A stretch of DNA of 64,000 nucleotides, taken from assembly GCA_035500095.1 (NCBI GenBank), contig DATJXN010000005.1, positions 1 to 64,000 on the forward strand. The letters are read 5' to 3'. How positions within the stretch are numbered: the stretch's first letter is position 1; each line of letters opens with the position of its first letter. The notes below the pieces were generated by a model. That model was not told the DNA's origin, made no database searches, and saw nothing but the letters and a program-made list of their open reading frames with translations. Below, in pieces: positions 45,843-48,047 of the stretch. Origin of the DNA: Candidatus Binataceae bacterium (GTDB lineage: Bacteria; Desulfobacterota; Binatia; Binatales; Binataceae). A program made the translations under genes and the position numbers.

Positions 45843-47288
45843 TCAGGAGCGGCCGCGCAGGCTCAGCACCAGCATCCGCGGCTCGGTCATCGACTCCATC
45901 GCCCAGCGCACGCCCTCGCGGCCCAGCCCCGAGCCCTTCACGCCGCCGAACGGATAGGTGTCCACGCGGAAGACGCCGGTGTCGCCGACGATCACGGCGC
46001 CGGCCTCGATCTCGCGAAACGCCTTGAAGGCGTGTTCGAGATTGGGCGTGAAGACGCCCGACTGCAGGCCGTAGGGCGAATCGTTGGTCAGCGCGATTCC
46101 CTCGGCGAATGAATTGATCGGCTCGACCGTCGCGACCGGTCCGAAGATCTCTTCGCACCAGACGCGCAGCCGATGGAGCTTCGGCTCGGAAAGCTCGACC
46201 AGCGTCGGCGCGATCACGTTGTCGACGCGCCGGTCGCCGGTCAGGATTCCGGCGCCGGCCGCCTTGGCCTCGCCGATCCATTCCATCACGCGGTCGGCCG
46301 CCGCGCTCGAGACGAGTGGGCCGACCACCGTCCGCTCGTCCATCGGATCGCCAACGCCGAGCCGCTCGGTCGCATCGATCAGGTGCTTGAGGAACGCGAA
46401 ATAGACGTTGCGATGGACGAAGATGCGCTGGACCGAGAGGCAGACCTGGCCGGCGTTGACGAACGCGCCGCGCGCCGTGCGCGTCGCGGCGTATTCCAGG
46501 TCGGCGCCGTCATCGACGATCAGGGCGCCGTTGCCGCCGAGCTCGAGCGCCACGCGCCTGGTCCCGGCAATCGCCTTGAGCGCCCATCCGACCTTGGCGC
46601 TGCCGGTGAAACTGACCATCTTGACCCGTTCGTCGGTGGCCAGGCGCTCGGCGACCGGCGGGTCGGCCGAAACCACGTTGAGCGCGCCCTTGGGCAATCC
46701 TGCGCCGGCGGCCAATTCGGCCAGCATCAGGGCCGGCCCCGGACACTGCGGCGGCGGCTTGACCACGATCGTGTTGCCGGTCGCGATCGCCGGGGCGACC
46801 TTATGCGTGACGAGGTTGAGCGGAAAGTTGAACGGCGCGATCGCGGAGATAGGGCCGATCGGGAAACGCTCGACCAGTCCGACCGCGCCGGCATTTGCGG
46901 CCTCGAAATCGATCGGCTCGGCGTTCTCGCCGAAACGTTTGACCTCTTCGGCGGCGAGCGCAAGCACGCCCACCGTGCGGCCGACCTCGGCACGGGCGTA
47001 GTCGATCGGCTTGCCCGTGCCGAGCGTGATCGCGCGTTCGAAGTCTGCGCGACGCTCGGCCACGCCGCGGCTCATCGCGTTCAGAATGTCGGCGCGCCGC
47101 CCGCGTCCCATCCGGCGCGTTTCCGCATAGGCGCGCGCTGCGCTCGCAATCGCCGCGTCGATCTCGGCCTCGCCGGCGCGGGCGACCGTGCCGACGACCT
47201 CGCCGTTGAAGGGATAGCGCAGGTCGTAATGGTCGGAAGTATCGACCGCCTGGCCGTCGATAAAGAGCGGATATGCCGGAACCGCCAT
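45843..47288 (-). CDS. NAD(P)-dependent aldehyde dehydrogenase
   Basis: A 481-residue ALDH-superfamily enzyme. Catalytic Cys in FVNAGQVCLSVQR, general-base Glu in VALELGGNGALIV, the cofactor motif in FTGSAKVGWAL and the oxyanion Asn in IAPFNFPLNLV are all present; it resembles the GAPN/succinate-semialdehyde type. GGGAGGTCC lies at good spacing before the ATG at 47288. A 37-bp element 47 bases upstream is also found before the selenoprotein candidate, so both may share regulation. Confidence 0.94.
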   Translation of the reverse strand: MAVPAYPLFIDGQAVDTSDHYDLRYPFNGEVVGTVARAGEAEIDAAIASAARAYAETRRMGRGRRADILNAMSRGVAERRADFERAITLGTGKPIDYARAEVGRTVGVLALAAEEVKRFGENAEPIDFEAANAGAVGLVERFPIGPISAIAPFNFPLNLVTHKVAPAIATGNTIVVKPPPQCPGPALMLAELAAGAGLPKGALNVVSADPPVAERLATDERVKMVSFTGSAKVGWALKAIAGTRRVALELGGNGALIVDDGADLEYAATRTARGAFVNAGQVCLSVQRIFVHRNVYFAFLKHLIDATERLGVGDPMDERTVVGPLVSSAAADRVMEWIGEAKAAGAGILTGDRRVDNVIAPTLVELSEPKLHRLRVWCEEIFGPVATVEPINSFAEGIALTNDSPYGLQSGVFTPNLEHAFKAFREIEAGAVIVGDTGVFRVDTYPFGGVKGSGLGREGVRWAMESMTEPRMLVLSLRGRS

Positions 47289-47974
47289 GACAAGGACCTC
47301 CCGCAAAGCCCCCCGCCGCGAGCCTTTTGGCCGCGCTTATTTATCGCGCACTTGCGCGCAGCAAAAAAGAGCTTCGGGGGCCTGGCCGGCCTCCTCAAAC
47401 CGGCAGATCTTCCTAAATCGGACTGGCCTTCCCAAACTGGACAAGTTTTGCCGATCTCCAGCCCCAGCGCATGAATCAGCCGTCCGTAGCCGACGAAGGT
47501 CACGATTCTGAAGCCCAGGTCTATGATCTCGCCTTCGGTAAAGTGCTTGCGCAAGCCATCGAAGGTCTCCTGCGAGGCCTGCCGATGGTCGCCGGCTAAT
47601 ATTGTGGCGAAGCGAATCGCCGCTTTTTCCTGGTCAGTCAATTTGCGGCTGCTTTCGAAATTGGGCAGCTCGGCGATCAGTTCCTCGGTCAGTCCTTGTT
47701 GCCTTGCCAAGGCAAATCGGGCGCCCATTCACAACGCGCACTCGTTCTTTTCCGCGACCTTCAGCCGCGCGAGCTCGATCAGCTTCATGTTGACTGCGCC
47801 GCGCGTCGTGCTCACCAGGGGGAAGTAGAATTTGATGAAGTCCTTGAAGACCTCGGGTGCGTGGGCCAGGACCTGCACGAATCCGGAGCCGCCGAGTTCC
47901 ACGTCGTACTCGTGCATCACGGCTTGAAGCTCCGGATCGATCCTTTCGAACGGGAGAGAACTGAGCCGCGCCAT
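47081..47974 (-). CDS. Candidate selenoprotein: carboxymuconolactone decarboxylase/AhpD-like, CxxU
   Basis: The minus-strand frame from 47974 reads ELARLKVAEKNECAL, then TGA (47731-47729), then MGARFALARQQGLTEELIAE in the same frame, ending in the family's FVGYGRLIHALGLE. Members of this family (AhpD/CMD fold) have a CxxC redox pair at this place; here Cys79 pairs with the TGA codon as residue 82. A hairpin with a GGC loop begins right after it. Read-through as selenocysteine gives a coherent protein. A strong GAAGGAGG site precedes the ATG. The frame has no stop after the expected end and runs to 47081, overlapping the aldehyde dehydrogenase start by 208 bases; the true end may be earlier if there is an indel near 47430. 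Alternatives are a nonsense mutation or sequencing error; the exact CxxU position and hairpin argue against these. Role probably peroxide/thiol redox chemistry. Confidence 0.72.
47336..47372 (-). promoter_or_regulatory. 37-bp palindrome-bearing element upstream of aldehyde dehydrogenase (copy A)
   Basis: 33 of 37 bases match copy B at 48011-48047. The core, read on the minus strand, is a TTTTTTGC run followed by GCGCA-AG-TGCGC, a 5+5 palindrome with two central bases, and then GATAAATAAG. It ends 47 bases before the ALDH ATG. Conservation in the same position before two genes suggests an operator or promoter element rather than chance. Confidence 0.6.
47699..47731 (-). promoter_or_regulatory. 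Candidate bacterial SECIS element with the UGA it would recode
   Basis: On the minus strand the TGA (47731-47729) is followed, after 13 bases, by a perfect 7-bp stem TTGCCTT/AAGGCAA with loop GGC (47715-47699). The loop starts 20 bases after the TGA and begins with G. This matches the general form of bacterial SECIS elements: inside the coding region, directly downstream of UGA, with a short loop beginning in G. It would recruit SelB-Sec-tRNA. Not experimentally known. Confidence 0.65.
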
Positions 47975-48010
47975 CGGTGGCCTCCTTCGCGGGCGTCCAT
48001 TGCGACTGGC

Positions 48011-48047
48011 CCTACTTATCGCGCACTTGCGCCCGGCAAAAAAGAGC
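48011..48047 (-). promoter_or_regulatory. 37-bp palindrome-bearing element upstream of the selenoprotein candidate (copy B)
   Basis: Same element as at 47336-47372, in the same orientation, 36 bases before the ATG of the CMD/AhpD-like gene. It contains the identical GCGCAAGTGCGC palindrome and TTTTTTGC run. It lies in the short gap behind the RND transporter gene, which ends at 48071. Confidence 0.6.

Follow-up and report, generated by a model that had tools for sequence, protein, structure and literature searches.

A candidate AhpD-like selenoprotein of the CMD superfamily in Binatia, with an in-frame TGA at the second cysteine position of the redox pair

Is the TGA which interrupts a gene related to carboxymuconolactone decarboxylase (CMD) and AhpD proteins a stop, or is it read as selenocysteine (Sec, U), the selenium-containing amino acid? 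The gene was detected in a 64,000-nucleotide stretch of DNA, here called the window, from a genome of Binatia, a little-studied class of mostly uncultured bacteria. The original prediction located the TGA at the second cysteine of a CxxC pair and stated no strand; the gene lies on the minus strand, and its main features, in window coordinates, are the following.

47435..47974, minus strand: homologous core of the predicted selenoprotein coding sequence, residues 1-180 including U82 (the CMD match extends over the TGA; Sec relatives are 24-76% identical here)
47981..47987, minus strand: Shine-Dalgarno (SD) sequence AAGGAGG, identified from the sequence
47774..47776, minus strand: Glu67 codon, AhpD Glu118 equivalent (12 residues ahead of Cys79; no variation in the close clade; motif in PMC3141380)
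47738..47740, minus strand: Cys79 codon, first of the CxxU pair, AhpD Cys130 equivalent (at least 90% conserved in alignment A1)
47729..47731, minus strand: TGA, putative Sec codon (U82; TGA or a Cys codon in this column among relatives)
47717..47719, minus strand: Arg86 codon (U+4), at the position of the AhpD relay His137 (codon-level comparison of relatives)

An ORF of 81 codons (47974-47729, 81 aa) runs from the ATG at 47974 to the TGA at 47731-47729, past which the frame continues without a stop from 47728 until a second TGA ends it at 47081. By translating the first TGA as a residue, the sequence ...IELARLKVAEKNECALUMGARFALARQQGLTEE... is obtained, whose motif is Glu67 ... Cys79-Ala-Leu-U82 ... 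Arg86, with Cys79 and U82 in the predicted positions. The Pfam CMD domain (PF02627) matches residues 40-123, and hence spans the TGA, with E 2e-8 and a score of 34.4 bits, above the gathering cut-off of 23 which defines the superfamily; the codon is therefore embedded in CMD/AhpD-type sequence, as had been proposed. The AAGGAGG is located 7-13 nt 5' of the ATG at 47974, and inspection of the window sequence revealed nothing SD-like before the ATG directly following the TGA, in agreement with the claim that a good ribosome-binding site precedes the upstream start only.

A search of the source genome for selA, selB, selC and selD had been indicated as a check. All four, as expected for the host of a bacterial selenoprotein, are present in this genome (3.6 Mb, 156 contigs): selA (561 bits), selB (377 bits), selD (385 bits), which adjoins selB (L016, G000:C9:8452-9378), and tRNA-Sec (68.6 bits), called by ARAGORN as tRNA-SeC(tca), anticodon TCA. 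The selD gene itself contains an in-frame TGA at the known UxxK site (GUAGK), which is an independent sign of Sec use by the host. At the level of the class, selB is nearly universal (120 of 148 genomes), so that its comparison with the count of TGA-bearing genomes is uninformative; it was unmatched in about 5 of the 50 TGA-bearing genomes of the class, several of which are incomplete bins, but one of which (G449) is listed as 99% complete. A genome-wide reassignment of TGA to Trp, Gly or Cys, in favor of which nothing speaks except the in-frame TGA itself, was tested and rejected as having a negligible probability, because among ordinary stops in the window TGA is the most frequent, ending 24 of the 44 large ORFs, the column is Cys in relatives and the Sec machinery is complete.

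The identity of column 82 was then evaluated in related loci. A class-wide search gave matches in 80 of 148 genomes, and the closest relatives in the class (50-76% identity) all contain one internal TGA. At codon level, 57 of the 67 inspected loci have TGA in this column, while the others have Cys, as in L064 and L066, or Glu, found in a branch with a YEWTQH-type motif. A second genome collection, for which a first scan with a single protein had given no match, provided 80 loci, 34 with TGA and 46 with TGC or TGT; the two sets overlap partly, some TGA loci being the same contigs. Thus all 46 non-TGA relatives of the second collection (sphingomonads, Pseudonocardia and others) carry a Cys codon here, which answers in the affirmative the question, also raised with the prediction, of whether Cys fills the column. 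TGA-bearing related loci amount to dozens and are mostly from Binatia; a search of viral contigs detected no relative, and one of plasmids detected low-identity homologues only. Two marks of bacterial selenoproteins, an in-frame UGA at a functional site of a conserved gene and Cys homologues in the UGA column, are hence found together. Where dS is unsaturated, pairwise dN/dS lies at about 0.03-0.13 upstream of the TGA and not above about 0.16 downstream, low values which indicate that the sequence is kept as protein both before and after the codon.

Some loci depart from the common pattern. The TGA is kept and the first Cys of the pair is lost (AKPU, SPYU) in L050 and L146, from the same contig, and in L030. 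A distant second AhpD-like gene of the host genome (L105, G000:C24:14634-15158) contains an in-frame TGA within a CPFU motif, and is probably also a selenoprotein.

The sequence immediately following the TGA folds into a short hairpin.

47699..47715, minus strand: SECIS-like hairpin, 7-bp stem, GGC loop (7/7 pairs covary; loop GG invariant, 26 sequences)

In the 26 sequences, which are divergent, a distance of 16 nt separates the T of the TGA from the start of the stem, which encloses a 3-base loop, GGC, GGT or GGG; changes on both sides are observed at each of the seven pairs. Paired cells are 97.8% at the true position versus 34-51% in slid controls, a comparison that leans towards the stem, because its position was picked from folds of the same sequences; the covariation in divergent branches is independent of this choice. 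When the same proteins are synonymously recoded, a mean of 3.5 stem pairs is expected versus 6.1 observed. Given its base composition, the region has an unremarkable total folding energy (MFE; mean z about 0), and the evidence was for this reason limited to the stem at its fixed position and to the covariation of the stem. The hairpin is missing in Cys homologues, which form only 0 to 4 of the 7 pairs at this position. Some of the other Sec branches (CPFU, CGxU, gammaproteobacterial MAGs) have few pairs at the fixed position, and several seem by eye to have a stem displaced by a few bases. When a covariance model of the hairpin region was built with the window sequence included, it detected the window site with E 2.5e-12 and nothing else in the genome below E 1. 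A further mark of bacterial selenoproteins, a bSECIS hairpin just 3' of the UGA with a G in the apical loop, is therefore recognizable, and its clean alignment may be used to find further members.

These data also bear on the concern, expressed with the prediction, that re-sequencing might turn the TGA into TGC or TGT. The sequence comes from a single metagenome-type assembly and its C-terminal reading frame is abnormal, both of which would fit a sequencing or assembly error; re-sequencing was here replaced by the comparison of many independent genomes, and dozens of independent assemblies proved to have TGA at this codon, the covarying hairpin being found only beside TGA, so that an error was rejected as scarcely conceivable. 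A true stop, resulting in an 81-aa product and a separate, re-initiated downstream protein, or else in a decaying pseudogene, is only a little less improbable. It could be suggested by the ATG directly after the TGA in the window (TGAATG) and by a gene 3' end devoid of the stop of the family, but in many relatives the codon after the TGA is CTG, AAG, AGG, CAG or GGC, and not ATG. Furthermore, purifying selection acts similarly before and after the TGA, the CMD domain extends across it, the second ATG has no SD, and Cys homologues are one continuous protein; this explanation was also rejected.

The original reading of the TGA as Sec is, in turn, supported by the sel genes, the Cys column, the independent genomes with TGA and the covarying SECIS-like hairpin, to which computation adds selection across the TGA and the fold described below. 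Judging from sequence, the gene very probably encodes an AhpD-like (CMD superfamily) selenoprotein, a redox enzyme in which UGA codon 82 would be decoded as Sec by means of the hairpin.

The 3' part of the ORF needs separate consideration.

47081..47434, minus strand: C-terminal in-frame non-homologous run-on (end of relatives at about residue 180-200; pLDDT <50 over residues 176-188)
48016..48047, minus strand: 32-bp repeat, upstream copy, palindrome GCGCAAGTGCGC, before the selenoprotein gene (one of two genome copies)
47341..47372, minus strand: 32-bp repeat, downstream copy, before an aldehyde dehydrogenase-like gene (one of two genome copies)

Family sequence had been proposed on both sides of the TGA in the ORF reported at 47081-47974. 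This holds up to about residue 180, where the homology to relatives ends, while the last 117 codons or so are a run-on: 216 codons follow U in the window ORF, versus about 95-119 in relatives. The run-on crosses a copy of the repeat and overlaps, out of frame, the start of the aldehyde dehydrogenase-like gene; it may derive from a lost stop or from an assembly indel. The 32-bp sequence is a direct repeat present only twice in the genome, each time shortly 5' of a start codon, and the pair may represent a common operator/promoter element or the scar of a gene insertion. The genes neighboring the selenoprotein gene in the window are acyl-CoA dehydrogenase-like, aldehyde dehydrogenase-like and RND genes; a comparison for operon logic showed that the neighborhoods of close orthologues are unrelated, with no conserved neighbor such as AhpC.

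An AF2 model obtained from a 47-sequence alignment (pLDDT 87.5) is all-helical, with Cys79 in the turn preceding a helix (80-92) and U82 near the helix start. Best Foldseek matches are AhpD-type structures, with TM (query) of 0.63-0.78; structural and profile matches include the AhpD-type proteins 6K40, 2PRR, 2GMY and 2O4D, and also the debrominase Bmp8. The AhpD relay is formed by Glu118, Cys130, His132, Cys133 and His137, the His being invariant in the structurally studied family (PMC3141380). In comparison with that description, the predicted model has the all-helical AhpD fold and the protein has the CxxC/CxxU pair with the upstream Glu (Glu67, Cys79, U82), but the residue four positions after the second Cys is Arg86 and not His. 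At this U+4 position Arg is found in 42 of 57 Sec relatives, and His in one. Since Arg occupies it in most Sec relatives and also in the Cys homologues of the second collection, the absent relay His characterizes the subfamily, and Sec was rejected as the cause of its loss. Both His132 and His137 being absent (Leu81, Arg86), AhpD catalysis cannot be assumed. Column 82 does not vary within the close clade, one member of which (L050, AKPU) lacks Cys79; such a pattern would be anticipated for Sec as the attacking residue. No variation is seen in that clade at Cys178 either, a residue close to the C-terminus that might, speculatively, act as a resolving thiol.

According to the proposed mechanism, a ribosome assisted by SelB and Sec-tRNA would read UGA codon 82 as Sec owing to the short downstream hairpin, and in the folded all-helical protein Sec82 would be placed at the N-end of a helix, beside Cys79. 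Sec82 would most likely be the attacking selenol of a thiol/selenol redox cycle, reducing a substrate, presumably peroxide or similar, and then forming a selenenylsulfide with Cys79, which a putative cellular thiol donor would reduce again. By analogy of fold and motif, the function is most likely that of a thiol/selenol peroxidase or oxidoreductase.

It is unlikely, though deserving of some weight, that Sec is inserted into an enzyme other than a peroxidase, namely a Bmp8-like protein of the reductive dehalogenase type within the CMD superfamily, a decarboxylase or an isomerase. The occurrence of Bmp8 among the matches, the Arg in place of the relay His and the nature of the neighboring genes, in a non-conserved neighborhood, would agree with such an activity; AhpD-type peroxidase-related structures, however, are matched at least as closely as Bmp8, nothing genetic was seen to connect the gene with halogenated compounds, and the conserved CxxU pair favors thiol redox chemistry. 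Somewhat more doubtful still is the idea of a Binatia-centered radiation of Sec-dependent CMD proteins, marked by Glu...CxxU-x3-Arg and Cys178 and reaching six members per genome, that would perform a reaction different from that of AhpD on peroxide, for example reductive dehalogenation or another lipid/xenobiotic redox step. A thiol/selenol peroxidase or oxidoreductase remains the preferred prediction.

Genomes of family f108 contain up to six TGA-bearing CMD paralogues each (L039-L046, L068-L080), an unusual expansion of a single selenoprotein family. The window protein groups with sequences from f108, f112 and a few from f1, the family of its own genome, in which close relatives are patchy; this distribution suggests transfer or loss. 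An expanded set of Sec-dependent CMD proteins is thus placed in Binatia. As ordinary gene callers halt at TGA, splitting or truncating the protein, the annotation of this clade of redox enzymes would be wrong throughout.

The original prediction spoke of a new candidate selenoprotein, which is appropriate for the gene and its clade, but not for the kind: CxxU selenoproteins were reported in 2005 from the Sargasso Sea, both CMD domain-containing (4 sequences) and AhpD-like (27 sequences; PMC1088965), and both are also in a 2026 list (Table 1 of PMC13188914). A literature search for Binatia selenoproteins, with most subscription papers outside its reach, found no description, and the large Binatia CMD/AhpD-like Sec clade, to which the window gene belongs, is apparently undescribed. 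With the Sargasso Sea CMD selenoproteins (PF02627; PMC1088965, PMC13188914), as they are described, it shares the fold family and Sec as second residue of the CxxC pair. Superfamily and motif are also common to the AhpD-like selenoprotein (TIGR01926 peroxidase-related enzyme, CxxU; PMC1088965, PMC13188914), but the window protein scores 46.7 bits with TIGR01926, whose curated cut-off is 81.8, and falls outside it. The best NCBIfam match, over residues 1-154, is NF053654 (GroundWater_YciW, YciW-related (seleno)protein), weakly matched by all 47 aligned relatives; at 54.5 bits versus a cut-off of 310, the protein is not a member, and it is far below the cut-off of each of several related '(seleno)protein' models. 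The Cys CMD proteins of Novosphingobium, Pseudonocardia and others (NQCRSCMAIRY) are full-length homologues (32-41% identity) with the same CxxC position and Arg at +4, and differ by having TGC/TGT for TGA and no hairpin. AhpD of M. tuberculosis and PA0269 (2O4D, 2IJC; PMC3141380) are all-helical and share the Glu-(x11)-Cys-x-x-Cys arrangement, seen here as Glu67, Cys79 and Sec82, whereas the window protein has the predicted Sec for the second Cys, Leu81 for His132, Arg86 for His137 and no ahpC neighbor. Against these known systems the principle is unchanged, CMD-domain and AhpD-like CxxU selenoproteins having been known since 2005; what appears new is a clade in Binatia that has Arg in the place of the AhpD relay His and reaches six Sec paralogues in one genome.
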